A DNA stretch of 64,000 nt from Ensifer sp. LC163 (GTDB lineage Bacteria; Pseudomonadota; Alphaproteobacteria; Rhizobiales; Rhizobiaceae): contig NZ_MBSS01000023.1 of NCBI RefSeq assembly GCF_001695855.1, forward strand, positions 310,001 through 374,000, written 5' to 3'. The notes beneath the pieces are model-generated. The model was not told the DNA's origin and did no database searches. It saw only the letters and a list, made by a program, of their open reading frames with translations. Both the position numbers and the translations under genes were made by a program. Numbering within the stretch: the stretch's first letter is position 1; each line of letters opens with the position of its first letter. Shown here in pieces: positions 3,116 through 32,623 of this stretch.

Positions 3116-4204
3116 ATGAAAAACGGACTTGAAGACGTCGTCGCCGCTGAAACGCAGCTCTCCGACGTGGACGGCGAGGCAGGCCGATTGGTTATCCGCG
3201 GCGTGTCGCTCGACCATCTTGCCGAATACGCCAGCTATGAGGATGTCGCGGCCCTCTTGCTCGACGGCCTGATCGAAGGAAACCTCGAAAAGGAAAATCT
3301 GCGCCGGCGCCTGGGACAAGCACGAACAGAGGTCTTCGCGCACATCCGGGCCATCGACGACGATATGCTGGGATTGCCGCCAGTGGACATCATGCGCGCG
3401 CTCACCGCCCGCCTGCCGGACGGTGACGATCTTGAGGCCGCGCTCGGCCTGCTTGCGGCACCGGCCGTCTTTCTGCCGGCAATCCTGCGCCTGAAGAATG
3501 GCGACGAGCCGGTTGCTCCATCGCCATCGCTCTCCCAATCGGCGGACATTCTCGCTATGCTTGGGGGGGGGAGACCGAGCAAGGAAAAGGTGAAAGCGCT
3601 CGATACCTATCTCGTGACGATTTCGGATCACGGCCTCAACGCTTCGACTTTTGCGTCAAGGGTGATCGCCTCCACCAAAGCCGGCCTTACCTCGTCGGTA
3701 CTCGGCGCGATCGGCGCCCTGAAAGGGCCGCTCCATGGCGGCGCGCCTGGACCGGTGCTGGACATGCTGGATGCGATAGGAAGTCAGGACAACGCGAAAG
3801 CATGGCTCAACCAAGCGCTTGATCGGGGCGAACGCCTGATGGGCTTCGGCCATAGGGTTTACCGCGTCCGGGATCCCCGCGCCGATGCGCTGAGGTATGC
3901 TTTGCGGCCCCTGATCGACGCCGATCAAGTCGATCGCGAACGCATCAAGCTTGCAAATGCGGTCGAGCTGGCAGCACTGGCGATCCTGAAGGAGCGCAAG
4001 CCGGACCGGCCTCTCGACGTCAATGTTGAATTCTATACGGCACTGTTGCTCGATGCATTGGGCTTCCCGAGAGATGCCTTCACCGGTGTCTTCGCCATCG
4101 GTCGCACCATCGGCTGGATCGCCCATGCACGCGAGCAGGCGCTTAGAGGTCGCCTGATCCGTCCGCGCTCGCTCTATGTCGGACCGCTGCCACAGGCGGC
4201 CTAG
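3116..4204 (+). CDS. Citrate synthase family protein (citrate/2-methylcitrate synthase-like)
   Basis: The 362-residue citrate synthase fold condenses acetyl- or propionyl-CoA with a 2-oxo acid. Visible are DHGLNASTF at 171, the catalytic His207 in PLHGGA and His246 in GFGHRVYR. The third catalytic position, normally Asp in NVDFY, is Glu305 in NVEFY; whether this is a subfamily norm cannot be told here. The start at ATG 3116 is chosen because it follows AAAGGAG with good spacing; the longer upstream frame runs into the divergent promoter. A run of nine G at 3563-3571 lies in frame within the gene. It pairs divergently with the HTH-containing paralogue. The protein is shorter than GltA (about 430), as in the CitA/PrpC-like group. 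Confidence 0.85.
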   Translation: MKNGLEDVVAAETQLSDVDGEAGRLVIRGVSLDHLAEYASYEDVAALLLDGLIEGNLEKENLRRRLGQARTEVFAHIRAIDDDMLGLPPVDIMRALTARLPDGDDLEAALGLLAAPAVFLPAILRLKNGDEPVAPSPSLSQSADILAMLGGGRPSKEKVKALDTYLVTISDHGLNASTFASRVIASTKAGLTSSVLGAIGALKGPLHGGAPGPVLDMLDAIGSQDNAKAWLNQALDRGERLMGFGHRVYRVRDPRADALRYALRPLIDADQVDRERIKLANAVELAALAILKERKPDRPLDVNVEFYTALLLDALGFPRDAFTGVFAIGRTIGWIAHAREQALRGRLIRPRSLYVGPLPQAA

Positions 4205-4274
4205 GTCGCATCTGTGTTGACCGCCGCTGGCCGACGGCAGTGGTCTATGCCGGGAGGCCAGGTGGGGCCGCCGA

Positions 4275-4378
4275 CTGCATAATTCCTTAAATCGAAATCG
4301 ATTTAAGGATAAATTATGCAGCAAGTTTAAAGTGTTACAGCGTCCTTCGCGCATCATATTTGATGCGCGGCGCTGTAG
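4275..4378. repeat. RIME1-like intergenic mosaic element, copy 1
   Basis: Two adjacent palindromes make up the element. The first spans 4275-4321, with outer arms CTGCATAATT/AATTATGCAG and inner arms CTTAAATCG/CGATTTAAG. The second spans 4337-4376, with ACAGCG/CGCTGT and GCGCATCA/TGATGCGC. The size of about 104 bp and the double-palindrome plan match the Rhizobium-specific intergenic mosaic element RIME1. An inverted second copy is at 18312-18416. It lies between two convergent genes. Confidence 0.75.
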
Positions 4379-4393
4379 CCAATCGTGCCTTGA

Positions 4394-4762
4394 TCATTCG
4401 CGCGTCGGCGCTGCCCTCGGCTCCAGCGGCACATAGCCGTCGGCGGTGAGCCAGTCGAGCGTCGTCTTGCCCACCCCGCGCAAATAGGCCACGGCTTCAA
4501 TGAGAAGAGGATCGGTCAAGTCTGCCGGGCCGAGCAGACGGCTGGTCTCGCCATCCAGACACGACACTATCGCCGCTCGATCTCCCTCCTCAATGTAGGA
4601 CCGAACGACATAGGCCTTTCCCCCTTCCGAAAATCGATAGATGTCATACTCGTAGTGATAGTCGTAAAAGCCTTCCGCGTCGGGCGCCGAAGCATCGATA
4701 TGATGGCTGACGTCAACGCGCATGGCAGCAACCCGCGATGCTTGATTCGGTTCGGCCGTCAA
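4394..4762 (-). CDS. Hypothetical protein translationally coupled to AraC regulator
   Basis: This 122-residue soluble protein is not recognised. It starts with TTG at 4762 inside a TTGA overlap with the stop of the upstream AraC gene, which implies translational coupling; an alternative ATG is at 4723. The sequence is acidic and aromatic-rich in the middle (EGFYDYHYEYDIYRF) and ends in a proline-rich tail. There are no transmembrane segments or metal motifs. Its function is possibly tied to the AraC regulator or the adjacent efflux gene, but nothing in the sequence proves this. Confidence 0.6.
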   Translation of the reverse strand: MTAEPNQASRVAAMRVDVSHHIDASAPDAEGFYDYHYEYDIYRFSEGGKAYVVRSYIEEGDRAAIVSCLDGETSRLLGPADLTDPLLIEAVAYLRGVGKTTLDWLTADGYVPLEPRAAPTRE

Positions 4763-5739
4763 TGATCATGCCCGACCTCCCCGAGGGCGGCGGAGCCGGC
4801 TGAAGGCAAGCGCGAATTCTGGGCCGAATTCCTGCTTCGATAATGGCTTGGCGGCGCCCCGATGATCTTGCGGAACGCACGGCTGAAAGAAGCTTCCGAA
4901 TCGTAGCCGAGGCGGCCCGCGACAAGGGCCACCCGCTGCCCTTCCTGCAGCCATTGATGCGCCTGGTGCATCCGCATGCGCGCGACATAGCGGGCCGGCG
5001 TCTCGCCCACGGTGTCGACAAAACGCTGGGCGAAACCCGATCGCGACGCCCCCATGAGCTTTGCCAGTTCGGGCACTGTCCAATCCCTTGCAGGTTCGAG
5101 ATGGATGGCTGCAAGGACACGTCCGAGTTCCGGGTTGCGAACGGCCGCAAGCCAGCCGGTCGCCGTGCCGCAGCCATGCTCCACCCAGGTTCGAATGAGC
5201 GTAGCGGTGAGCACATCGGCGAGCCGCGCGAGAATGCCGCCCGAGCCGACGCGCTGCATTTCTGCTTCCCGCATCATGGCATCGAGCAGCGGCGGGATCG
5301 ACGGTTCGCTCGACGCAAGGTCGCTGGTGCGCATGACGGCGGGCATCAATTGCAGCAGCGGATGCAGACGATCGACATTGAACCGCATCACCGCAAAGAA
5401 GATGAGGTTCTTGCTGTCTGTCGATGGGCATTGCACGTCGATGATGCCGTCGCACAGCTGCCGCCTCGGCAGGTCGCTTATCGAAACCGCAGGGATGCCC
5501 GGCTTGCTGGCAAGCACATGCGCATCACCCCTGGGCAATAGCACCGCATCGCCCTGGGCGAGCTCGATCCATTCGCCATCCGGTGTCTGAAGATGGGCCG
5601 AGCCTGCCGCGAGAAAATGGAAGCGTGCGGGCTCCTGCGCCGGGTAAGCCGTCGCCCAGGGCGCACAGGGTTGGCAACGCCCGTATTCGACGCCGTCGAG
5701 CCTCAGCCCGCGCAAAATCTCGGTCAATGCATCGCTCAT
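4759..5739 (-). CDS. AraC-family transcriptional regulator with cupin sensor domain
   Basis: The 326-residue protein has an N-terminal cupin-like effector domain (PARFHFLAAGSAHLQ, GDAVLLPRGDAHVL) and a C-terminal double HTH (WTVPELAKLMGASRSGFAQRFV, then VALVAGRLGYDSEASFSRAFRKI and GAPPSHYR). The cupin_6/AraC_binding arrangement is known from regulators of small-molecule resistance and efflux. The ATG at 5739 is chosen because the preceding in-frame residues are low-complexity and run into the divergent promoter. It is transcribed divergently from an MFS exporter at 5850, its likely target, with a TTTCTA-GCA-TAGAAA dyad between them. Confidence 0.88.
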   Translation of the reverse strand: MSDALTEILRGLRLDGVEYGRCQPCAPWATAYPAQEPARFHFLAAGSAHLQTPDGEWIELAQGDAVLLPRGDAHVLASKPGIPAVSISDLPRRQLCDGIIDVQCPSTDSKNLIFFAVMRFNVDRLHPLLQLMPAVMRTSDLASSEPSIPPLLDAMMREAEMQRVGSGGILARLADVLTATLIRTWVEHGCGTATGWLAAVRNPELGRVLAAIHLEPARDWTVPELAKLMGASRSGFAQRFVDTVGETPARYVARMRMHQAHQWLQEGQRVALVAGRLGYDSEASFSRAFRKIIGAPPSHYRSRNSAQNSRLPSAGSAALGEVGHDH

Positions 5740-18429: not shown

Positions 18430-19647
18430 TTATCGGGCAGTCGCTGCAACGACCGCAGCGACCGTCGCCGGGGAAAGCTCCACCTCTGCCAGCACCTCGG
18501 CCGTATGCTCCCCAAGCGCCGGCGCCGGGCGCCGGAAGCGCCCCGGTGTTTCGGACATGCGCGGCACGATATTGTGCATCGGCAGCGCCCCGTGCTCCGC
18601 ATCGTCCAGCGACACGATGACCTCGCGCTCGGCGAAATGCGCGTCGTCAGTGGCGTCGGCAATATTGTAGATTGGCCCGACCGTTGCGCCACTGTCGCGC
18701 ATGATGGCAAGCGCTTCGTCATGAGAACGGACGGCAAACCAGGCGCCGATCGCCTCATCAACCAGATCGCGGTGTTTGAGGCGCTCGCTGTTGGAGCGGA
18801 AGCGTGGATCGTCGTTCATGTCGGCGCGGCCGATGATCTCGAATATCCGCCGGGCGACGGCCGGCGTCGAACCGGAGAGCGCGACGTATTTGCCATCGGC
18901 GCATCGGTAGACGTTGCGCGGGCAGGCGGTGTTCGAGGCGCTGCCGATGCGCTCCTTGACCGTGCCGTTGAGCGCATAGATACCGGCCTCGGGGCCAAGC
19001 ACGGAAAAGATCGGCTCCAGCAGCGACAGGTCGATGACCTGCCCGCGCGCCCTGCCCTGTTGGCGCGCAAAGAGCGCCGTCATCGTCGCCGACATGCCGT
19101 AGACACCGGCGATCATGTCGGCGAGCGCCAGCGGCGGCAAGACAGGCTCCCGATCGGGAAAGCCGGTGCGGTACGCATAGCCGCTCATGCCTTCGACGAT
19201 GGTTCCGAAGCCGGGAAATGCCGCATAGGGCCCGGTCTGGCCGAAGCCGGAAATGCGCACGACGACGAGATCGGGATTGCGCGCCAAGAGCGCCTCCGGG
19301 CCAAAACCCATTTGCTCCAAGGTACCCGGGCGAAAATTCTCGATGAGGACGTCGGCACTCGCCACCAGCGCCCAGAGCGCCTCGCGGTCAGCCGTTTCGC
19401 GCAGGTTGAGGACCACCGAACGTTTGTTGCGCCCGTAGGTCTTCCAGAACAGCGACAGCCCTTCGTCTTTCCACTCGCGCAGCGGGTCGCCGGCCGGCGG
19501 TTCGATCTTGATCACGTCGGCGCCGAAATCGGCAAGCTGCAGCGACAGCATGTTGCCGGCGACCAGACGCGAAAGGTCGAGAACCCTAATCCCTTCGAGA
19601 GGGCCTTCGGCGCTCGGGTCCCAGTGTTTTCTGGCAAATTCGCTCAT
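18430..19647 (-). CDS. CaiB/BaiF-family (class III) CoA transferase
   Basis: The 405-residue protein has the family III layout: [15 protein letters not shown] at the N terminus, [16 protein letters not shown], the YGRNKRSV substrate loop, [14 protein letters not shown], and the catalytic Asp in [12 protein letters not shown]. These enzymes move CoA between carboxylic acids through an aspartyl-CoA thioester. The gene is the last of the lacI-led operon and overlaps the ATPase gene by ATGA. A CoA transferase at the end of a sugar-type ABC operon suggests activation of an acid released from the imported compound; the acyl group is unknown. Confidence 0.9.
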
Positions 19648-20699
19648 TGGATGCGTCCGCCCGTCTTGTCGTCGAACAGTAGCAAGTTGGCGGTGTCGAA
19701 GCCGATCGTCACGTTTGCGCCCGATTGCAACAGCGCGCTTTCGCCGAGAACCATGGTGAAATCGGTGGCCCCAACCCGCAGCATCACCTCCTGCGCCTCC
19801 CCGGTCGGCTCGACCAGCACGACCTCGGCGGCGATGCCGCTGTCGGCAGGATGGATATGCTGCGGACGTATCCCATAGACCACCTTGCGACCCTCTGCGA
19901 GCCCATGACCGGGCGGCAACGGCAGACGGGCGCCATCGGCAAGCCGCAGCATCTGGCCGTCGATCTCGCCGCGATGCAAGTTGATCTCGGGCGATCCGAT
20001 GAAACTGGCGACGAACAGGTTCTGAGGATTTCTGTAGAGGTCCAGCGGTGGCCCCATCTGCTCGATCTTGCCGCCGTTCAGAACCACGATCTTGTCGGCC
20101 ATGGTCATGGCTTCCGTCTGGTCGTGGGTGACATAGATGGTCGTCTTGCCCAGGCGCTGGTGCAGCTTCTTGATCTCGCCGCGCATCTTCACCCGGAGTT
20201 TGGCGTCGAGGTTGGAAAGCGGCTCGTCGAAGAGGAAGGCGCGGGGATCGCGGACGATGGCGCGCCCCATGGCCACGCGCTGACGCTGGCCGCCCGACAG
20301 CTCGCGCGGAAGCCGTTCGAGCAGATGCTCGAGCCCTAGAATATCGGCGGCCTCGTTGACGCGACGATTGATCTCGGTCTTCGAAACGCCCGCAAGCTTC
20401 AGCGCGAAGCTCATGTTGTCGGCGACCTTCATGTGCGGATAGAGCGCGTAGCTCTGGAACACCATCGCAAGGTCGCGCTCCTTGGCCGGCATGTCGTTGA
20501 CGATGCGGCCACCGATGGTGATTTCGCCGGCGCTGATGTCTTCCAGCCCAGCAATCATCCGCAGCAGCGTCGACTTCCCGCAGCCGGACGGGCCGACCAG
20601 GACCACGAATTCGCCGCTGCCCATGTCCAGCGAAATATCATCGAGCACCGACAGGCTGCCGTAGCTCTTGCCCACACTCCGCAGTTCAATCTCGGACAT
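19644..20699 (-). CDS. Carbohydrate ABC transporter ATP-binding protein (MalK/UgpC-like)
   Basis: The 351-residue ATPase has Walker [10 protein letters not shown], the Q-loop in [14 protein letters not shown], signature [14 protein letters not shown], Walker [13 protein letters not shown] and H-switch YVTHDQ. A C-terminal TOBE-type beta domain of about 110 residues is typical of MalK/UgpC. It powers the two permeases encoded upstream. GGGAGGAGAG precedes ATG 20699. An 86-base gap separates it from the preceding ARH fusion gene, but strand and spacing keep it in the operon. Confidence 0.93.
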
Positions 20700-20785
20700 G
20701 GTCTCTCCTCCCACTTGATAGGCCGATGCGCTCCTTGCTCGCCCACCGGCCCGTTTCACGGACCGGCAGGCGGGATCAAAGCCGC

Positions 20786-22894
20786 TCAGGCGGTCTCGAC
20801 AATCTCGATCGTTCCGACGCTCATGCGACCGAGCGCACCGAGGCGAAGGCCGGCCATGCCATAGGCAAACTGGTCGTCGCTTGCCTCGATCAGCGGCTTG
20901 CCGTCGATCGCGAAGGACAAGGCATTGCCCTCAACGGAAAACGCGAAACCGTAGTCCTTTCCGTTCTCGCGCTTGAACGGGGCACGCGCGAGAACGGTGG
21001 TGCCGAAATCCTCCTTGAGGATAACCACGTCGTCGCCGTCGAAGCCTGCGGCATAGAACCGGCTCGTGCCCTGCACGCGGGCCGTAACAAGTTGCGACGG
21101 GCCGGCGAGCGGCCGGACATCCGCCAGGACCTTGACGTCGCGGGCGTAGTAATGGCCCGTCCACATATCGGCATCATTGGCCGTATGGGCGTGAATATGG
21201 CCATCCTGCAGGGTCCAGTGGCCACGGTTCCAGGTAAAGCGCGAGATCGCGCCCCACTCCTGCACTTCCGCCTTGGGATCGATGACGGCCTTGCCCGGGC
21301 CTTCCACCTTGAAATCGGCGAGGAACAGGCGGCCGAGGAATTTCAGTCGGCCGAAATATTCGACCTGAATGCCGATCTCGTCGATCGCCTCCACGCCCTC
21401 AGGTACGGTAAATCCATAGTCCTGCCAGCCTTCATGATTGGGCAGGTGCCACGCGCCGGTCTCCTCGATCGCGCCAGACATCGCCCGGCGGATATAGGGC
21501 GCGACGCGCAGGTTTCCGTCACCGTTCCACGGGTCGAGCCACAGCTTGAACGACACCTTCTGGCCAGCATCGACGAGCGGCGAGAACATCGGGCGATAAC
21601 GCTCGTCGTCGAAATCGGAGCGGCGATAGAACGGCTTCCAAAAGATCCGTCCGCCCTGGCCGCGCTCGAGCCGATCGAGCTGGATTTCGAGCGAACCGCG
21701 CGATCCTTCGGTCTGCCTTTCGCTCGAGCCCTTGAGGCTGATCTGGTTGAAGCCCTCGGTGCGGAAACCATGGGTCGAACCGGGCAGGTCGAAATCGAAA
21801 CGGACGCCGCGGCGGGTGAAGTCTTCCAGCCAAAGGGCCGGCACGTCGTCGCCGCGCAGTTGCAGCGCAAGCACCGTCAGTTCCCGGGCAAAGGACGGGA
21901 TGTCGACGATGTTGATCGAGCCGACGATGCCGGAGGCAACGATGAAGTCGTTGATGGGTTTGCGGTATTTGTCCCAGTTCGGCTGGAGCCCCTGGAACGT
22001 GCCGACAATGGCGCCCGCATTGCCGGCATTGCAGTCGGTGTCCCAGCCGGCCATGGTCGCGATCTCGGCCGTGCGCGGCAGATCGCCTTCGCCATAGAGG
22101 ATCGCCATAACCGTGACGCCGGCATTCGGGATGATGTGGCAGACGCCGGGATAGCGGTCATAGCCCCATTCAGCGGTCAGCATGTCGCGGCAGGCCCGCC
22201 AGTTGCCGGGGTTGGCCTTGTGGAAGTCGATGACGGCCTGCGCCACGCGGGCATAGGTCGATTTCGCGTCGATGGTCGCCATGGCAGCGGCGATCACCTC
22301 GGCGATCGACGTCGCCTCGAATGCCTTGGCGATGGCGGCGGCGCAGAAGCGGGCGCCGTTCAGCCCGTCGCCGTCGTGAGCAACACTTGCCGCGCGGGCG
22401 GAGGCGTCGGCCGCCTTTTGCGGCTCGCCCGGATGCACCCAGCCCCAGCTGTCGATGAAGATCTGGCCGCCGATCTGCTCGGCGACCGTCGCGCCGTTCT
22501 GAGCGATCGAGCCGGATTGCGGTGCCGGAATGCCGGCGCGCAGGTTGCGATAGGCGGTGTGTTCGGTCGAGACGCCGAAGCCGCCCCACCAGTACATGCC
22601 GTGCTCTTCGGCGGCATAGTTCACCCAGGTCTTGCCGACGTCGGCGGCGCTGGCCTTGAGCCCGTAGTCGCGCAGCGCGCGGATGAAATAGACCGGGCCA
22701 TTGGTGTCGTCGTCTGCGGCGAAATTCTTGAAATCGCGCAGGTACTGAGTGACTTCCCCGTAGGTCTTCTGGATGCGCTCATAGCTCCAGATCGTCGGCT
22801 CGACCGGCGCGCCAAGGCGAACGCCAATGGCCTTGCCGATGAAACCGGCATAGATCTTCTCGTAAATCATCTCTTTGCTGAGCTTGGGCATCAT
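20786..22894 (-). CDS. ADP-ribosylglycohydrolase-family protein with C-terminal beta-rich domain
   Basis: This is a 702-residue two-part protein. The N-terminal part of about 340 residues is ADP-ribosylglycohydrolase-like: [17 protein letters not shown], the metal-site ADDDTNGP and a late [13 protein letters not shown], equivalent to the paired Asp clusters that hold two Mg ions. The C-terminal part of about 350 residues is rich in beta-strands and aromatics ([47 protein letters not shown]) and resembles lectin-like carbohydrate modules. There is no signal peptide. The start is ATG 22894 or 22891. It follows a second ARH gene by 17 bases, suggesting cooperative cleavage of an N- or O-glycosidic bond in an imported compound. 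Confidence 0.85.
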
Positions 22895-22911
22895 GCGTCT
22901 TTCGTTATCAA

Positions 22912-24096
22912 TCAAAATGTGAGGGCGGCGCGGAAGCTGGCCCGCCTGTCGGCGGTCGCCTGGTCGGCGGCCAGGATGGCTGTTGCCGTTTCGGTGAACC
23001 GATCGGCGGAGACGGTGAGGTCGAGCCTGTTGACCTGGTCGAGCAAGGCGCAGTCGGCAGCGTCGATGACGCCTTCGCCGTGCATCGCGCCGAGGATCGC
23101 ACCGGCCATGACGCCGATGGAATCCGTATCGCGGCCGGAATTGATGCCGTCCTCGATCGAGCGGCGGAAATCGCCGTCGTTGAACAGGCAAAATCCGAGC
23201 GCCAAGGGCAGTTCTTCGATCGAGCCGAGGCGGTTGGGCTGATAGGCGCCAGTCAGCCGTCCGGCCTTGGCAGCGGTGTGGTTGACGTCGTCGCCCATGG
23301 GAGAATAGGGCGCGATGGCCGCATGGAAAGCGGCGACAACCGTCGCATAGTCGGCGCCCTGTGCCTTGAGCTTGCGGGCCACTTCGGCGATGTCGGCAAT
23401 GGCGTTGCGCGTGCCGTCCTTGGCCAGCGCCAGAACGGTACCGATCACGCCTTCGATATCGGTGGCCGGAATGAAGGCGGCGGCAACCGCGGCGGCGAAA
23501 ACGCCTGCTGCTTCGAGGCCAAAACTTTCCTGGTGGCCGGAGGCGAACGCGATCGCCTCGTCATAGGCAGCCTTCGGATCGCAGGCGTTGACGACACCGA
23601 TCGGCGCCACATACATCGCCGCGCCGCAATTGACCATGTTGCCGATGCCGCCCTGGCGCGGATCGCAAGATGCCAGCTGATGGCGCTGGAAGATCCATTT
23701 TTCCGGATAGAACAGCCGCTCGATCAGCATCGCTTCGCGCTGCAGTTCCGGCACGTAGCGCGACACCCAGGCGATCTGTTTGACCATGCCGTCGGCCATG
23801 TCCCAGGCATCGAGATGCCTGCCGACCTCGCCATAGATATCCATCAGGCAGAGCGTCATCAGCGTGTCGTCGGTGACAATGCCGTTGCCGCGCACCCGGC
23901 CGTTGCGGGCCGTGGCGTCGAGCGACATCTTGTGCCACTCGGTGTTAAGCGACGTCACCCGCCCATATCGCGCCGCGATCTCGGCGGCCGACAGTTTTTC
24001 GACCGGCGCCCCCATGGCGTCGCCGAGAGCGACGCCATGGATGAGCGCGCGGACCCTCCCCTTCAGGGAGAGCCCTTGAACGCTACTTTTCTGCAT
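22912..24096 (-). CDS. ADP-ribosylglycohydrolase-family protein
   Basis: The 394-residue single-domain ARH-fold enzyme has HGVALGDAMGAPVEKL at the start, the first metal cluster in GIVTDDTLMTLC and the second in INSGRDTDSIGVMAGAI, the residues that coordinate the two-magnesium centre in ARH/DraG proteins. It hydrolyses an N- or O-ribosyl (or related) glycosidic linkage. The gene overlaps the binding-protein gene by 14 bases, so the two are coupled. The neighbours point to catabolism of an imported glycoside rather than reversal of protein ADP-ribosylation, but DraG-like protein demodification is not excluded. Confidence 0.9.
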   Translation of the reverse strand: MQKSSVQGLSLKGRVRALIHGVALGDAMGAPVEKLSAAEIAARYGRVTSLNTEWHKMSLDATARNGRVRGNGIVTDDTLMTLCLMDIYGEVGRHLDAWDMADGMVKQIAWVSRYVPELQREAMLIERLFYPEKWIFQRHQLASCDPRQGGIGNMVNCGAAMYVAPIGVVNACDPKAAYDEAIAFASGHQESFGLEAAGVFAAAVAAAFIPATDIEGVIGTVLALAKDGTRNAIADIAEVARKLKAQGADYATVVAAFHAAIAPYSPMGDDVNHTAAKAGRLTGAYQPNRLGSIEELPLALGFCLFNDGDFRRSIEDGINSGRDTDSIGVMAGAILGAMHGEGVIDAADCALLDQVNRLDLTVSADRFTETATAILAADQATADRRASFRAALTF

Positions 24097-25507
24097 CTAG
24101 AACCGTCCTTGCATAGTCATTGAGACGTTTGCCGCCGGCCGCTTCCCACTCCGCGACATACTGGTCCCACTGATCCATCTTGGCGGCGCCGGAAATGAAC
24201 TTGTAGACCCAGGACCGATAGACGTTTTCGGTCGCATCGAGATCGGCGGCGTAGTCGGCCGGCCATACGAAGGTGTTGTCCGGCTTGAAGTCTTCCTGGA
24301 TCGTCGCCAGCGACTGCTGGGCTGCTTGCGACTGCCAGACGACGGGCGGGGTCCAGTTGGCCGCAACCATGAAGCGGGCGTACCAGGTGGCGATCTTGTC
24401 GGTGACCTTATAGGCATCGCCGTCCTTGGTGTATTCCTGGCCCTCGAAGCCGAGGCGGTCGAACATCTGGCCTTCGGGACTTGCCATGAAGTCCAGCAGC
24501 TTCATCACTTCGGCCTTGTGCTCGGAGATGGTCGAGATCGCCAGGCCGCGCGATTCCTTGGAGACGTCGACGGCGGCGAGGCCCTGGCCTCCCGGTCCCT
24601 TCGGCGGCGCCAGAAGCACGAGCTCGGCGCCCGGATGGACCTGGCGCATCTTGCCGCCATAGATGTCGATGACCTCGCCGGAGGAGCCGAAGATCACCCC
24701 TGCCTTGCCGGTGTAGAACTTGTCTTCCTTCACGTCGAACTTGGTGGTGATGTACTCTGGATCGTAGAGGCCCTGTTCGCGCAGCGAGGCGTAGAAGGCG
24801 ATCTTGTCCTTCTCCTCAGCGGTGACGCGCGCATGCACCCACTCGCCGCCTGCGTTCTTCATCCAGGTGCCGGTGATGCCGAATGCCTGGTTGAAGATAG
24901 AATCGAGCTCGTTTGTGTTGTCGGCGGTGGTCACGCCGTAGCTGTCGGCGACGCCGTTGCCGTCGAGATCGCCGTCCTTGATGGCCTTGAACAGGGTGAC
25001 GTAGTCTTCGACGGTTTCAGGCGCCTTGAGGCCGGTCTTTTCCAGCCAGTCCTTGCGGATCACCGGCTGGGGACCACGCACGGGATAGACATAGAGCAGG
25101 TAGGGATAGTTCTTCAGCCGCTCGACATTGTGCGGCCACAGCGCGTCTTTGAGATATTTCGTGTCGGCAAGCATCGGGCCGAGGTCTTCAAGCACGCCCT
25201 GCTCGACCATCTTGGCGTCGCCGCCCTGGAAATAGATCAGGTCCGGAATGTCGCCCGACAGCAGCATGACCGACAATTTGTCGGCGTAGCCGGAAGACGG
25301 CAGGTCGACGAGTTCGATGTCGAGATCGGTGCCCTGCGCCCTGAGCGCGTCCTCAATGCGCTGCAGGTGCTTGACGTCGTCAGGATTGGATGGGGTGAAG
25401 TCCTTGGACACCACCCGGATCTTGATCGGTTCGGCCATTGTCGGGGCGGCCGCGCCGAGGCTGAGCGCCAGGGCTGTCGATGCCAGCAGGACCATTTTTC
25501 TAAGCAT
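24083..25507 (-). CDS. ABC transporter extracellular solute-binding protein (family 1, LplA/YtcQ-like)
   Basis: The 474-residue protein has a Sec signal peptide (MLRKMVLLASTALALSLGAAAPTMA, cleavage after AMA-like AEP) and a mature family 1 binding-protein fold with LSGDIPDLIYFQGGD and DYVTLFKAIKDGDLDGNGVADSYG, the latter a calcium-loop-like DxDxNG segment common in LplA/YtcQ proteins. It binds the substrate in the periplasm for the permeases upstream. AAACGGAGGAGACG precedes the start. It lacks an N-terminal lipobox Cys, as expected in a Gram-negative bacterium. The ligand is probably an oligosaccharide or glycoside. Confidence 0.92.
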   Translation of the reverse strand: MLRKMVLLASTALALSLGAAAPTMAEPIKIRVVSKDFTPSNPDDVKHLQRIEDALRAQGTDLDIELVDLPSSGYADKLSVMLLSGDIPDLIYFQGGDAKMVEQGVLEDLGPMLADTKYLKDALWPHNVERLKNYPYLLYVYPVRGPQPVIRKDWLEKTGLKAPETVEDYVTLFKAIKDGDLDGNGVADSYGVTTADNTNELDSIFNQAFGITGTWMKNAGGEWVHARVTAEEKDKIAFYASLREQGLYDPEYITTKFDVKEDKFYTGKAGVIFGSSGEVIDIYGGKMRQVHPGAELVLLAPPKGPGGQGLAAVDVSKESRGLAISTISEHKAEVMKLLDFMASPEGQMFDRLGFEGQEYTKDGDAYKVTDKIATWYARFMVAANWTPPVVWQSQAAQQSLATIQEDFKPDNTFVWPADYAADLDATENVYRSWVYKFISGAAKMDQWDQYVAEWEAAGGKRLNDYARTVLDAEK

Positions 25508-25556
25508 TTCGTCTCCTCCGTTTAGATAGGCTTCTTTGTTTGAATTCCTGTCGTGT

Positions 25557-26453
25557 TCAGCCCTTGAGCGCGCCGCTCATGGTTCCCTTGGTGAAGAATT
25601 TCAGGATCAGCGGGTAGATCGCGAGGATCGGCACGATGGTCAGAAGGATCATGCCGGCCTTGAGCGCGCGCAGGTTGATCTGGCTGGCGCCGGTGTTGTT
25701 GCTGGCGTTGTTGGCACCGACGATCGCGACCTTGTCGCCGTCGATGACGAACTGGCGCAGCACCACCTGCAGCGGCCATTTCTCCTGGTCGTTCAGGTAG
25801 ATCATCGCGCGGAAGAACTCGTTCCAGTGAAAAACGAGGTAGAACAGCGAGATGGTCGCGAGCGCCGGCTTGGCCAGCGGCAGGACCAGATGCCAGAAGA
25901 CCTGGAAAGGGTTGGCACCATCGAGTTCGGCGGCTTCCAGCAGCTCCTTCGGGATCTCCTCGAAGAAGCGGATGAGGATGATCAGGTACCAGGCATTGAC
26001 CGCCTTGAAGAGGATCACCGACCAGTAGCTGTCGAGCAGGCCCAAGCGCTTGTTGACGAAGTAATCGGGAATGATGCCCGGCTCGAAGACGATGGTGACG
26101 AGTACGAGGATGAACAACGCCTTGCGGCCGGGCAGACCCGGTCGCGAAAGGCCCCAGGCCATCAACGCGGTGCCGACGACGCCGATCACGGTGCTGACGG
26201 CGGTGATGAAGATCGAGTTGAAGATGCCACGCTGCACATTGGGGTGCTGCAGCAGAACGCTCCAGACCTCAAACGAAAGCCCGTCCGGCACGATCGTCAA
26301 GCCGCTCATGCCCGGCACCTTGCCGGGTTCCGAAAGCGAGATGGCCAGAAGGTTCAGGATCGGCTGGACCGTGACGACGACGAGCAGCAGCAGCGTCGAA
26401 ACGATGATCGCATATTCGATGCGTTCGAGCGGAGTCTTGCGCGACAGGGCCAT
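25557..26453 (-). CDS. Carbohydrate ABC transporter permease (LplC/YtcP-like)
   Basis: The 298-residue inner-membrane protein has about six hydrophobic segments. The EAA loop that docks on the ATPase is visible as EAAELDGANPFQVFWHLVLP. The long periplasmic stretch after TM1 and the carboxy-terminal KFFTKGTMSGALKG ending are typical of the LplC/YtcP group. It overlaps the preceding permease stop by one base (TAATG), and the binding-protein gene follows after 49 bases. Confidence 0.93.
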   Translation of the reverse strand: MALSRKTPLERIEYAIIVSTLLLLVVVTVQPILNLLAISLSEPGKVPGMSGLTIVPDGLSFEVWSVLLQHPNVQRGIFNSIFITAVSTVIGVVGTALMAWGLSRPGLPGRKALFILVLVTIVFEPGIIPDYFVNKRLGLLDSYWSVILFKAVNAWYLIILIRFFEEIPKELLEAAELDGANPFQVFWHLVLPLAKPALATISLFYLVFHWNEFFRAMIYLNDQEKWPLQVVLRQFVIDGDKVAIVGANNASNNTGASQINLRALKAGMILLTIVPILAIYPLILKFFTKGTMSGALKG

Positions 26454-27430
26454 TACCAGACTCCCTTTCCGGTCAGGCGCTTGGAGACGAAGTGGGCGAT
26501 CACGATCATCATCGTGCCGAGCACGGCCTTGAACAGGCCGGCCGCCGTTGCCAGCGAATACTCGCCGGTCTGCAACCCGATGCGGTAGACATAGGTGTCG
26601 ACGATATCGATCTTGCTGCGCACCACGTCGTTGGAGAGGTTGATCACCTGGTTGAGGTCGGCGTTGAGGAACATGCCGGCATTGAGGATGAACAGCGTCG
26701 CAATCGTCGGCACGATGCCCGGCAGGGTGACGTGGCGGATCTTCTGCCAGCGGTTGGCGCCGTCGATCTCGGCGGCATCATAAAGCTGCTGGTCGATGGC
26801 GATGATGGCGGCGAGATAGAGCAGGCTGTCCCAACCGGCCGAACGCCAGATTTCGGTAAAAACGAGCACCCAGCGGATGGCGCCGGTATCGGTCATGAAC
26901 GACCGCGGCGCCATGCCGGCCATGCCCATGAGATTGTTGACGGCACCGTCGGTCGGCGACAGCGCGGCGATGAAGATGCCGGCGATCACCACCCAGGACA
27001 GGAAATGCGGCAGGTAAATCGCCGACTGGATGAACTTGCGCAGCGAACCGCCGCGGACCTCGTTCAGCAACAGCGCGACGATGATCGGCACCGGCAGGAA
27101 GAACACCATCTTCATCGCCGAGATGATCAGCGTATTGGCCAGCACCTGCCAGAACACCGGCGAGGAGAACAGCACCTGGAAATGCTTGATGCCCACCCAG
27201 ATGTTGGGCGGGACGATCCTGACCTGTTCGAAGGCGATGCGCGCTTCCCAGATCGGCAGGTAATGGAAGACGAGGAAGAACAGGATGCCCGGCGCCATCA
27301 TGACGTAATAGGGCCACCAGCGACGCCAGCCATCGGCGGCGAGCGCGAGGCGTCCCAGCCTGCGGCGTGCGCTCGATTTGGGAACGTTCCCAAACTTAGG
27401 CGAAATCATCGCCTCCTCGCGATTGGTCAT
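26453..27430 (-). CDS. Carbohydrate ABC transporter permease (LplB/YteP-like)
   Basis: The permease of about 325 residues has an EAA loop DAAEIDGANRWQKIRHVTLPG and about six membrane segments after an N-terminal arginine-rich cytosolic tail. The start is uncertain: ATG 27430 follows GGGAGGGGG, and ATG 27409 follows GAGGAGG more closely. The gene begins 4 bases after lacI. An 18-base perfect palindrome, TTTGGGAACGTTCCCAAA, lies inside the first codons at 27377-27394 and looks like an operator embedded in coding sequence. Confidence 0.92.
   Translation of the reverse strand: MTNREEAMISPKFGNVPKSSARRRLGRLALAADGWRRWWPYYVMMAPGILFFLVFHYLPIWEARIAFEQVRIVPPNIWVGIKHFQVLFSSPVFWQVLANTLIISAMKMVFFLPVPIIVALLLNEVRGGSLRKFIQSAIYLPHFLSWVVIAGIFIAALSPTDGAVNNLMGMAGMAPRSFMTDTGAIRWVLVFTEIWRSAGWDSLLYLAAIIAIDQQLYDAAEIDGANRWQKIRHVTLPGIVPTIATLFILNAGMFLNADLNQVINLSNDVVRSKIDIVDTYVYRIGLQTGEYSLATAAGLFKAVLGTMMIVIAHFVSKRLTGKGVW
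27377..27394. promoter_or_regulatory. LacI-type operator inside permease coding sequence
   Basis: TTTGGGAACGTTCCCAAA is a perfect 18-base palindrome with the central CG typical of LacI/GalR operators. It lies within the permease 5' coding end, about 40 bases after the adjacent lacI gene. A related site is at 28510. Confidence 0.75.
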
Positions 27431-27434
27431 TCCC

Positions 27435-28481
27435 TTACCCCCTCCCGGAGCTGGCTGCGCGTCTGGGCTGGTTGAGCGACAGATCGGCCAACGAGCCGCG
27501 CTCGATAAGCCGGCATGGCATGAACACCCGGCCATGCTCGGGGCGGCCGGCGATTTCGTCGAACAGGCAGTCGACGGCGCGCACGCCGATCTCCCGCCCG
27601 GGCTTGGCGACCGTCGTCAGTCCCGGCCAGGAAAACGCCCCGGCGGGAATGCCGTCGAACCCCAGGATCGAGACATCCTCAGGGCAGCGCAACCCGGCTT
27701 CGCGCACGGCGACCATGGCGCCGAGCGCCATGAGATCGTTGGCGGCGAATACAGCGAGATGGCCGACCCGGTCGCGTTGCAGGAGCCGCATCATCGCCGT
27801 GCGCCCACCTTCAACGGTGTATTCGCCATCCTCCATCGGCAATGCCGCCGGGTCGATGTCGCGATCGACGCAATGCTCATGGAAGGTCCGCAGAAACCGG
27901 GCGCGCGCGATGCGCGACTTCGGCCCCAGGATCAGTGCCGGTGCATGATGCCCCTTGGAAACCAAGTGGTCCATGCCGAGCCGTACGGCCTGGGCGATAT
28001 CGGAACCGACGCTGGAGGTCGCCGGAAAACGCTCGGCACTCGAGCCGATCAGCACGAAGGGCAGCCCGAACCGGTCGAGATCGTCGAAATTGTCGGCGAC
28101 CGGATTGATGATGGCGCCATCGACCCGCGCCTGCCGCAGGGCCCGGAGATGGCTGGCTTCGCGGCTGTGATCCCAATCGGAAGAAAACACCAGGAGCGAG
28201 GTCCCGTTTTCGGCGGCGCGGTCCTGCGCGCCGCGCGCCACCTCGGCCCAGAACGGGTTGGTGATGTCTGGAATGACAAGGCCGAGCAGACCGGTACGGC
28301 CGGATCGCATGCCGACGGCGAGATCGTTGCGCTCATAGCCGACGGCACGGGCAGCATCGAGAACCCGCTCTCGCGCCTCATCCGTAACATTGGACGCGCC
28401 GGAGAGTGCCCGGCCGGCGGTGCTCTTGGACACCCCTGCCTTGCGCGCGACGTCAATGATCGTCGGTCGCCTCCGCTGCAT
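27435..28481 (-). CDS. LacI-family transcriptional regulator
   Basis: The 348-residue protein starts with the LacI HTH (TIIDVARKAGVSKSTAGRALSG, then hinge ERVLDAARAVGYERNDLAVGM) and continues with a periplasmic-binding-protein-like sensor domain (LGLVIPDITNPFWAEVARGAQD, DGAIINPVADNF, VSILGFDGIPAGAF). ATG 28481 is chosen because the HTH begins right there and GGGAGAG precedes it; upstream in-frame residues are non-homologous. As the first gene of the eight-gene operon, with GGGAACGTT palindromes before it and just after it, it probably represses itself and the transporter until a sugar-like inducer arrives. Confidence 0.93.
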   Translation of the reverse strand: MQRRRPTIIDVARKAGVSKSTAGRALSGASNVTDEARERVLDAARAVGYERNDLAVGMRSGRTGLLGLVIPDITNPFWAEVARGAQDRAAENGTSLLVFSSDWDHSREASHLRALRQARVDGAIINPVADNFDDLDRFGLPFVLIGSSAERFPATSSVGSDIAQAVRLGMDHLVSKGHHAPALILGPKSRIARARFLRTFHEHCVDRDIDPAALPMEDGEYTVEGGRTAMMRLLQRDRVGHLAVFAANDLMALGAMVAVREAGLRCPEDVSILGFDGIPAGAFSWPGLTTVAKPGREIGVRAVDCLFDEIAGRPEHGRVFMPCRLIERGSLADLSLNQPRRAASSGRG

Positions 28482-28509: not shown

Positions 28510-28525
28510 GTGGGAACGTTACCAC
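28510..28525. promoter_or_regulatory. LacI-type operator upstream of lacI
   Basis: GTGGGAACGTTACCAC is a near-perfect 16-base palindrome sharing the GGGAACGTT core with the internal site at 27377. It ends 29 bases upstream of the regulator's ATG, the place for autorepression. Confidence 0.65.
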
Positions 28526-30140: not shown

Positions 30141-31238
30141 ATGATCCAGACCCCCTATTATCTGATCGACAAGGCAAAGCTGCTTCGCAACATGGAGAAG
30201 ATTGCCTATGTGCGCGAACGATCAGGCGCCAAGGCGCTGCTCGCGCTCAAATGTTTCGCCACCTGGTCGGTGTTCGATCTGATGCGCGAATACATGGATG
30301 GCACGACCTCTTCCTCGCTCTACGAGGTGCGGCTCGGGCGCGAGAAATTCGGCGGCGAAACCCACGCCTACAGCGTCGCCTATGGCGACGGCGAAATCGA
30401 CGAGGTGATCGGCCATGCCGACAAGATCATCTTCAACTCGATCGGCCAGCTCGATCGCTTCACTGACAAGGCATCGGGCATTGCACGCGGCCTGCGCCTC
30501 AACCCGGGCATGAGCTCGTCCAGTTTCGACCTCGCCGATCCCGCCCGCCCCTTCAGCCGGCTTGGCGAATGGGATGCGGCCAGGGTCGAGGCGGTCATGG
30601 ACCGCATCAACGGCTTCATGATCCACAACAATTGCGAGAACAAGGATTTTGGCCTGTTCGACCGGATGCTGTCGGAGATCGAGGAAAAGTTCGGCGCGTT
30701 GCTTGCCTGCGCCGAGTGGATCAGCCTCGGCGGCGGCATTCACTTCACCGGCGACGATTATCCGGTCGATGCCTTCTGCGAGCGCCTGAAAGCCTTTTCG
30801 GGCCGCCATGGCGTTCAGGTCTACCTCGAGCCGGGCGAAGCCGCGATCACCAGGAGCACGACGCTCGAGACCACCGTTCTCGACACGCTCAACAACGGCA
30901 AGGATCTCGCCATCGTCGACAGCTCGATCGAGGCGCACATGCTCGACCTGCTGATCTACCGCGAAAGCGCAAAGGTCGAGCCGAATGCAGGGCCGCACAG
31001 CGTCATGATCTGCGGCAAGTCCTGCCTGGCTGGCGATATCTTCGGCGAGTTCCGCTTTCCCGAGCCGCTTGAGGTCGGCGACCGCGTCTCGTTCCAGGAC
31101 GCGGCCGGCTACACCATGGTCAAGAAGAACTGGTTCAACGGCGTCGGCATGCCTTCGATCGCCATCCGGGACCTTGACGGCAGCGTCAGGCTTGTCCGCG
31201 AATTCACCTTCGCCGACTACGAACAGAGCCTCTCCTAG
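30141..31238 (+). CDS. nspC: Carboxynorspermidine decarboxylase
   Basis: The 365-residue fold-type III PLP decarboxylase has the cofactor Lys37 in LLALKCFATW, the LGGGIHFTG glycine-rich phosphate loop and the cross-subunit Cys in ICGKSCLAGDIFGEF. The enzyme decarboxylates carboxynorspermidine or carboxyspermidine to the free triamine. With the next gene it forms the aspartate-semialdehyde-based spermidine/norspermidine route used by Rhizobiaceae and Vibrio in place of the SAM-dependent route. ATG 30141 follows a short gap after the unknown gene at 29274. A RIME-like element separates it from its partner. Confidence 0.92.
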   Translation: MIQTPYYLIDKAKLLRNMEKIAYVRERSGAKALLALKCFATWSVFDLMREYMDGTTSSSLYEVRLGREKFGGETHAYSVAYGDGEIDEVIGHADKIIFNSIGQLDRFTDKASGIARGLRLNPGMSSSSFDLADPARPFSRLGEWDAARVEAVMDRINGFMIHNNCENKDFGLFDRMLSEIEEKFGALLACAEWISLGGGIHFTGDDYPVDAFCERLKAFSGRHGVQVYLEPGEAAITRSTTLETTVLDTLNNGKDLAIVDSSIEAHMLDLLIYRESAKVEPNAGPHSVMICGKSCLAGDIFGEFRFPEPLEVGDRVSFQDAAGYTMVKKNWFNGVGMPSIAIRDLDGSVRLVREFTFADYEQSLS

Positions 31239-31239
31239 A

Positions 31240-31341
31240 GCATCCCGCCTTCAAGTGATGCCACTGAAGGCGGACAAGATGCTTTGGAATCAAAGGGCTG
31301 GAGCGTCCTTAGTGCGTTCTTCTGAACGCACGGCGCTCCAG
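31240..31341. repeat. RIME-like double palindrome between nspC and carboxynorspermidine synthase
   Basis: The first palindrome, 31240-31282, is GCATC..GATGC with inner GCCTTCA/TGAAGGC. The second, 31298-31341, is CTGGAGCG/CGCTCCAG with inner GTGCGTTC/GAACGCAC. The second keeps the same bulges (TCCTT-A on one side, GG on the other) as the RIME1-like copies at 4337 and 18312, with different but complementary stems. It begins immediately after the nspC stop. Confidence 0.65.
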
Positions 31342-31381
31342 GCCCGTCACGTCCCCAAGGGAAAAGGAGAAATCCCCCGAA

Positions 31382-32623
31382 ATGAAAAAGAACGTTCTCA
31401 TCATCGGCGCCGGTGGCGTGGCTCAGGTCGTGGCGCACAAGTGCGCACAGAACTGCGATGTACTGGGAGACATCCATATCGCATCCAGAACGGTCGAAAA
31501 GTGCCGCGCGATCGTCGACTCGATCCGCGAAAAGAAGAGCCTCAAGACCGATGTGACGCTCGAAGCCCAGGCGCTCGACGCCATGGATGTCGAGGCGACA
31601 AAGGCGCTGATCGAAAAGACCAAGGCCGGCATCGTCATCAATGTCGGCTCCGCCTTCGTCAACATGTCGGTGCTGCGCGCCTGCATGGATACGGGTGCTG
31701 CCTACATGGACACCGCGATCCACGAGGATCCGAAAAAGATCTGCGAGACGCCGCCTTGGTACGGCAACTACGAATGGAAGCGTGCGCAGGAATGCAAGGA
31801 GAAGGGCATCACCGCCATTCTCGGCATCGGCTTCGACCCCGGCGTGGTCAACGCCTATGCGCGCCTCGCCAAGGATCAGTATTTCGACAAGGTCACCGCC
31901 GTCGACATCGTCGACATCAATGCCGGCAGCCACGGCAAATATTTCGCCACCAACTTCGACCCGGAGATCAACTTCCGCGAATTTACCGGCGTCGTCTATT
32001 CCTGGCAGAACGGCCAGTGGCAGACCAATTCGATGTTCGAGATCGGCAAGGAATACGACCTGCCGGTCGTCGGCAAATGCAAGGCCTATATGACCGGCCA
32101 CGACGAAGTTCATTCGCTGGCCAAGCACATGGACGGCGCCGACGTCCGCTTCTGGATGGGTTTTGGCGATCACTACATCAACGTCTTCACCGTCTTGAAA
32201 AACCTCGGCCTGCTGTCGGAACAGCCGGTGAAAACGGCCGAAGGTCTCGAGGTCGTCCCGTTGAAGGTGGTCAAGGCGGTCCTGCCGGATCCGTCTTCGC
32301 TGGCGCCGAACTATCAGGGCAAGACCTGCATCGGCGATTTCGTCAAGGGCGTGAAGGACGGCGAGGAACGCGAAGTCTTCATCTACAACGTCGCCGACCA
32401 CCGGGAAGCCTTCGAAGAAGTGGGTTCGCAGGGCATTTCCTACACCGCCGGCGTGCCGCCGGTCGCCGCCGCCATGCTGATCGCTTCGGGCGAATGGGAT
32501 GTGAAGCGGATGGTCAACGTCGAGGAGCTGCCGCCGCGCCCGTTCCTCGACATCCTCAACCGGATCGGGCTTCCCACCCGCATCAGGGATGCGGACGGCG
32601 ACCGCGCGTTGACCTTCTCCTAA
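31382..32623 (+). CDS. Carboxynorspermidine synthase (saccharopine dehydrogenase family)
   Basis: The 413-residue protein has a Rossmann NAD(P)H site at the N terminus (MKKNVLIIGAGGVAQVVAH, GAGGVA at 9-14) and the saccharopine dehydrogenase C-terminal domain (GITAILGIGFDPGVVNAYARLA, GISYTAGVPPVAAAMLIASGEW). It condenses aspartate beta-semialdehyde with diaminopropane or putrescine and reduces the imine to carboxy(nor)spermidine, the substrate of NspC. AAAGGAGAAATCCCCCGAA precedes ATG 31382. A terminator follows at 32687, closing the unit. Which diamine is used cannot be told from sequence. Confidence 0.9.
   Translation: MKKNVLIIGAGGVAQVVAHKCAQNCDVLGDIHIASRTVEKCRAIVDSIREKKSLKTDVTLEAQALDAMDVEATKALIEKTKAGIVINVGSAFVNMSVLRACMDTGAAYMDTAIHEDPKKICETPPWYGNYEWKRAQECKEKGITAILGIGFDPGVVNAYARLAKDQYFDKVTAVDIVDINAGSHGKYFATNFDPEINFREFTGVVYSWQNGQWQTNSMFEIGKEYDLPVVGKCKAYMTGHDEVHSLAKHMDGADVRFWMGFGDHYINVFTVLKNLGLLSEQPVKTAEGLEVVPLKVVKAVLPDPSSLAPNYQGKTCIGDFVKGVKDGEEREVFIYNVADHREAFEEVGSQGISYTAGVPPVAAAMLIASGEWDVKRMVNVEELPPRPFLDILNRIGLPTRIRDADGDRALTFS

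Follow-up and report, generated by a model that had tools for sequence, protein, structure and literature searches.

The window considered here is the whole 64,000-nt stretch of contig NZ_MBSS01000023.1 of Ensifer sp. LC163, positions 310,001-374,000. Its minus strand carries eight consecutive open frames between 18430 and 28481, arranged head to tail in the order lacI, permB, permC, SBP (solute-binding protein), ARH1 and ARHf (two proteins of the ADP-ribosylglycohydrolase, ARH, fold), ATPase and CoAT (CoA transferase) (Table 1). An earlier, sequence-only reading had placed an eight-gene operon here, and the open frames and Pfam matches confirm it. The intergenic distances, in bases, are +4 (lacI-permB), -1 (permB-permC), +49 (permC-SBP), -14 (SBP-ARH1), +17 (ARH1-ARHf), +86 (ARHf-ATPase) and -4 (ATPase-CoAT); the further statement that the genes overlap or nearly overlap holds for most junctions, but not for the permC-SBP and ARHf-ATPase gaps. 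Comparison with related loci indicates that the operon is, on balance, probably a scavenging system for a conjugate of ribose with citramalate (2-methylmalate) or a close 2-alkylmalate.

Table 1. Genes and putative operators of the operon (window coordinates)
Feature	Position	Strand	Description
Putative LacI operator 1	28511..28524		Palindrome TGGKAACGTTCCCA, about 30 bases upstream of lacI
lacI	27435..28481	-	LacI-family regulator, 348 aa; Pfam LacI and Peripla_BP_3
permB	26453..27430	-	ATP-binding cassette (ABC) permease, UgpA/LplB-like; Pfam BPD_transp_1
Putative LacI operator 2	27379..27392		Exact palindrome, within the opening codons of the drawn permB frame
permC	25557..26453	-	ABC permease, UgpE/LplC-like; Pfam BPD_transp_1
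SBP	24083..25507	-	Periplasmic solute-binding protein; Pfam SBP_bac_1; signal-peptide-like N-terminus by reading
ARH1	22912..24096	-	Stand-alone ARH-fold enzyme, 394 aa; PF03747
ARHf	20786..22894	-	ARH domain (residues ~5-350), CBM22-like beta-sandwich (~360-536) and CBM66-like beta-sandwich (~536-702); CBM, carbohydrate-binding module
ATPase	19644..20699	-	UgpC/MalK-type ABC ATPase; Pfam ABC_tran with OB_MalK/TOBE_2
CoAT	18430..19647	-	Class III (CaiB/Frc) CoA transferase; Pfam CoA_transf_3 (PF02515), 394.9 bits (cut-off 23.3)

ARHf is widespread, with a patchy distribution outside the genus. It is present in all 16 examined genomes of the window's genus, and a match of any degree was found in 16 of 151 genomes drawn from the family and in 35 of 397 in the order. 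The main set of loci was obtained by an ARHf-profile scan of named genomes and comprises the best 80 of at least 497 confirmed stretches. These 80 are found in Alphaproteobacteria (including Devosia, Ensifer, Pelagibacterium, Inquilinus and Flavimaricola), in Firmicutes (Paenibacillus, Cohnella, Sporosarcina, Clostridia and others) and in Spirochaetes. Devosia, Ensifer, Pelagibacterium and others share the gene order of the operon, and the genome survey thereby bore out the conservation of the gene set. Because the same order recurs in other genera and ARHf is found throughout the genus, the operon is not a chance arrangement. At E <= 0.001 there are at least 3947 ARHf relatives among 7996 scored candidates and at least 5464 ARH1 relatives among 8000, many of them presumably members of other ARH subfamilies.

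The genes within 8 kb of ARHf were tallied at the 80 loci from gene clustering. These neighbourhoods contain a second ARH and a regulator alongside the permeases and SBP, and with them one of three modules that split an acid of the citramalate type. Such a module is found at 58 loci and is absent from 22. A CoAT with a CitE-type lyase forms the module at 22 loci, with one more showing CoAT alone, so that the lyase gene accompanies 22 of the 23 CoATs of this kind near ARHf. The pair CmlA and CmlB (AtuA-family PF07287 and DUF4387) is found at 25 loci, plus two with CmlA only, and CitE with CitF at seven, plus one with CitF only. The 22 loci without a module consist of 14 that belong to a distant ARHf clade, four on short contigs (L078, L081, L082 and L084) and four exceptions.

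What the three modules have in common is a substrate of the citramalate type. Of the CmlA/CmlB pairs, only that of locus L061 was tested; its CmlA matches chain A and its CmlB chain B of PDB 9erq/9evf (E 1.4e-135 and 3.2e-24), chains that the PDB entry name calls citramalate lyase subunits CmlA/CmlB. The L061 pair, at 3607-5285, has similar AtuA-family/DUF4387 pairs at 24 other loci, the PDB relatives being named citramalate lyase; the Pfam labels of these two proteins are a domain of unknown function for one and acyclic terpene utilisation for the other. A search for PF07287 (AtuA/CmlA) in the window's own genome gave no match, but the control matched nowhere either. Tests of two CitE-type lyases gave matches to the RipC/Ccl and CitE models for both and to solved acyl-CoA lyases for one. 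CitE-type lyases are found in two of the three modules, and the family models applied show no relationship between these lyases and CmlAB.

The modules have been exchanged repeatedly. On an ARHf tree of a quick kind the module labels, with "none" counted as a label, change 10 times, compared with a minimum possible of 3 and a mean of 34.8 on shuffling; a locus where CmlA, CoAT or CitF stood alone was counted with the full module, and 11 module-less loci with short flanks were left unlabelled. The CoAT and CitE genes of Sporosarcina, for example, are nested inside a CmlAB clade. Accordingly, different enzymes appear to perform one job in this operon slot. The same enzyme classes are those of known citramalate catabolism, and here they fill one position in different taxa. 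The acid is thus probably citramalate, on the basis of the three alternative modules.

The second ARH shows a similar linkage. By gene clustering, the distant ARHf clade (14 loci, SH-aLRT 100) has neither a module nor a second ARH at any locus, while among the core loci a module is found at 58 of 66 and a second ARH at 62 of 66. The enzyme in the second slot is either of the ARH1 type or of types with 328 to 355 residues; L056 holds both. The presence of two ARHs is read here as a sign that two bonds are cleaved, of which the second is connected with the acid. Relatives at L117-L126 (Rhizobiales), with 32-37% identity to ARHf, have an importer, LacI and in some cases ribokinase-like genes; no CoAT, CitE or CmlAB was found at these loci, and perhaps they are plain riboside systems. 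L125 and L126 have two ARHf-type genes each. Such distant relatives would suit an explanation in which the core operons, too, scavenge ribosides or oligoribosides in general, with citramalate a separately acquired co-metabolite and the neighbouring genes chemically unconnected. That citramalic acid is present in sugar beet root exudates, according to the accessible part of PMC6160592, is in keeping with this. However, no second transporter family is seen among the gene clusters present in at least 23 loci, the second ARH and the acid module are alike in being frequent in the core and missing from the distant clade, and the linkage is common to clostridia and spirochaetes. General riboside scavenging is therefore regarded as quite unlikely.

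For the sugar of a ribose-citramalate conjugate, ribose is likely, less securely than the acid. The anomeric carbon of a ribofuranose is where ARH enzymes act, CBM66 binds the furanose ends of fructans, and ribokinase-like genes are present at 27 of the 80 loci; it is on these three grounds that ribose is favoured. Ten of 12 ribokinase-like proteins tested exceed the TIGR02152 cut-off, those of L064 and L072 being the two that do not. The window's own genome has one ribokinase above this cut-off, unlinked to the operon. At L055 (1683-3635), L097 (8023-9978) and L100 (3409-5334), a LacI-like N-terminus and a ribokinase-like motif are joined in a single frame of about 640-650 aa close to ARHf. 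At L111 (9965-14921) ARHf is followed by a protein that by reading is DXS/transketolase-like and by a ribokinase.

An ARH gene near ribose genes has precedents. Ribose utilisation (rus) loci of Bacteroides reportedly have an ARH-family protein together with ribokinases and a SusCD-type importer and no citramalate module; the literature search found no such paper. Staphylococcal cassette chromosome (SCC) regions carry a triple of an ARH, a nucleobase-type permease and a ribokinase, as described in the accessible part of PMC3637587. The SCC triple thus likewise combines an ARH with a ribokinase and a transporter; its transporter family differs, and the table of that paper, as far as accessible, lists no second ARH and no citramalate-type enzyme.

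Both ARHs belong to PF03747 (166.4 and 134.7 bits, cut-off 26.2). In ARHf, residues E32, D61, D62, D63, D285 and D287 are invariant in all 35 aligned sequences, the window's included, down to 33% identity to it. In ARH1, T75-D76-D77-T78, D323 and D325 are invariant in 23 of 23 sequences (16 of the ARH1 type and seven of other second-slot types), and E33 is kept in 17 and replaced by R in six, all of the 328- to 344-residue types. These positions we take to be metal ligands, in part from alignments to MJ1187 and DraG. The view of the sequence-only reading that both enzymes keep paired Asp clusters is upheld, and no inactive metal site was seen. The predicted model of ARH1 (pLDDT 88.4) has a fold that matches DraG, MJ1187 and ARH3; that of ARHf has a pLDDT of 92.5. 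In fold and metal-site positions the operon's ARHs match the ADP-ribosyl hydrolases DraG, ARH3 and ARH1 (the hydrolase of that name). The beta-rich C-terminal region of ARHf, which had been likened to a carbohydrate module, is real; the model shows two carbohydrate-module-like beta-sandwiches. The last has a CBM66-like fold (root mean square deviation 1.6 over 153 residues of the predicted model), and for the other a CBM22/27 match is tied with a galactocerebrosidase match.

The PF03747 fold and the paired Asp motif are shared with the DraG/ARH family (DraG, ARH1, ARH3 and MJ1187), and an action of the two ARHs on ADP-ribose or ADP-ribosylated molecules, with CoAT and transporter as coincidental neighbours, would account for the match of fold and metal site. 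Several features make this very improbable. ARH1 scores 43.5 bits against the DraG equivalog TIGR02662, far below its cut-off of 337.05, and ARHf has no NCBIfam match. Unlike the genes of that family, the ARH genes lie within an operon with an importer of carbohydrate type, and ARHf bears the two C-terminal carbohydrate-module-like folds. Furthermore, most core loci, across three phyla, have permeases, SBP and a second ARH alongside ARHf. In alignment with MJ1187, D61 of ARHf replaces the T of TDD, VRL or IRL stands in place of the classical GDALG, and C288 follows the second Asp pair in 35 of 35 sequences. Judged from the alignments, these departures mark a separate subfamily.

The lyase partner lay beyond the reach of the sequence-only reading, none being encoded beside the window's CoAT. 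At most alphaproteobacterial loci the lyase gene directly follows CoAT, and 20 of 23 such loci carry both genes. Within the genus, genomes with an operon type 74-76% identical have the lyase right after CoAT in nine of nine cases (two of the nine re-read), and those with the window's own operon type (94-96% identical) are without it in seven of seven (the six others all read). The window's genome does encode a CitE-type lyase at G000:C23:276295, 60% identical to a Devosia operon lyase. This particular lyase is carried by all seven genomes with the window's operon type (86-91% identical in the other six) versus two of the nine others (81%), giving a Fisher p of 0.003 that overstates independence, as the pattern is that of two operon lineages only. 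This distribution fits a lyase that serves the operon in trans. The lyase gene is preceded by a second CoAT, 73% identical to that of the window; in G401, G404 and G409, three of the seven genomes, the lyase is kept and no second CoAT was seen. The surrounding cluster at about 270100-278200 of G000:C23 (L135, 2143-10214), some 50 kb from the operon, has an IclR-like gene, another ABC importer and the CoAT and CitE-type pair, followed by 2-hydroxyacid dehydrogenase-like and RraA-like genes; except for CoAT, CitE and ATPase, these products were assigned by reading. This second cluster may import citramalate or a related acid itself.

A pathway can be proposed on these grounds. The AlgQ-like binding protein (closest solved structures AlgQ1/AlgQ2, best E 8.3e-21) and the ABC importer, whose ATPase exceeds the cut-off of NCBIfam PRK11650 (473.3 bits versus 432), would bring the conjugate into the cell, and the two ARHs would hydrolyse its bonds in the cytoplasm. 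ARHf would act on the ribofuranosyl end, with the CBM66-like module perhaps holding the furanose, and ARH1 would cut the bond that frees the acid. Released ribose would pass to a ribokinase. CoAT, proposed to be a succinyl-CoA:citramalate CoA transferase, would convert citramalate and succinyl-CoA to citramalyl-CoA, from which the trans-encoded CitE-type lyase would yield acetyl-CoA and pyruvate. The sequence-only reading had envisaged import of a ribosyl- or glycosyl-linked compound, cleavage by the ARHs and activation of an acid as a CoA thioester; the comparative context supports this scheme and sharpens it to ribose and citramalate.

Besides the lineage effect in the genus, several points weigh against a ribose-citramalate substrate. 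Core loci L033, L049, L064 and L095 (one flank of L095 is short) are the four module-less exceptions; CoAT and lyase are both absent from L033, the closest named locus, and from L049 of Inquilinus, and L050, also of Inquilinus, has a CoAT without lyase. The distant clade is the sole internal control on module frequency. Among the 23 alphaproteobacterial loci no ribokinase-like gene was found, and the literature searched held no natural ribose-citramalate conjugate. The window's CoAT and the tested alphaproteobacterial CitE exceed no equivalog cut-off; for CoAT the models were succinate-glutarate, oxalate/formyl, mesaconate and carnitine, the best being succinate-glutarate (259.7 versus 750). 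CitD, CitE and CitF of L056 and CitF of L087, in turn, exceed citrate lyase cut-offs, so CitEF could equally mean citrate; a citrate lyase ligase gene follows the CitDEF genes of L056. The citrate lyase matches, along with the malyl-CoA lyases and citrate lyase-like proteins among the solved relatives of the CitE-type lyase, would be expected if another glycoside were imported and its acid were citrate or a different 2-hydroxy acid (a larger 2-alkylmalate or malate), with the ARHs freeing a pentose and lyases of the same kinds splitting the acid. Such an acid is considered unlikely, since citrate or malate would presumably enter the tricarboxylic acid cycle directly in aerobic alphaproteobacteria, with no need of a CoAT, and the proteins that CmlA and CmlB of L061 match bear the name citramalate lyase. 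According to the accessible part of PMC4682846, the citramalate lyase genes of clostridia carry a citrate lyase annotation, and homology is most probable.

Itaconate and mesaconate were set aside as the released acid: both require a hydratase ahead of the lyase, as stated in the accessible parts of PMC12290011 and PMC4682846. No hydratase or mesaconase was found among the gene clusters present in at least 23 of the 80 loci, the smaller clusters being mostly unannotated. Citramalate therefore seems to be released from a conjugate, in contrast to known citramalate catabolism, where it arises from mesaconate or glutamate. The literature searched, which did not include most subscription journals, held no paper on this pathway, nothing linking citramalate with ADP-ribosylglycohydrolase, nothing on DUF4387, DUF1446 and AtuA, and nothing relevant by title that pairs CBM66 with ARH. 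It may tentatively be suggested that there is a common but unrecognised ribose-citramalate metabolite, that organisms of at least three phyla live on it by way of paired ARH-fold glycosidases, one with CBMs, and that the ARH fold is also a catabolic glycosidase family. If so, a specific substrate would be predicted for ARH-fold enzymes outside ADP-ribosylation, together with a new natural sugar-acid conjugate, and many database proteins named ADP-ribosylglycohydrolase would be given a role. The substrate prediction is unusually sharp because the acid-splitting modules are exchangeable.

The LacI protein is a probable local repressor. Its top NCBIfam matches are CytR, RbsR and others, each under its cut-off. 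Of 24 stretches before permB or lacI (that of the window, 0.46 kb, and those of alphaproteobacterial loci, 1.7 kb each), 18 have a palindrome with at most two mismatches from TGGTAACGTTCCCA, a count that has no shuffle control. In the 6.5-Mb genome only two sites have zero or one mismatch, both of them in this operon, and the protein would accordingly control this locus alone through the two putative operators. Matches with two mismatches are at background genome-wide (28 in all versus 31 in the reversed control), and the regulon therefore gave no clue to the sugar or to the second lyase locus. Because operator 2 falls inside the frame, the start of permB is uncertain (27430, 27409 or later). 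Beyond the operon, on the plus strand at 30141-32623 of the window, are genes that by reading are carboxynorspermidine decarboxylase-like and saccharopine dehydrogenase-like.

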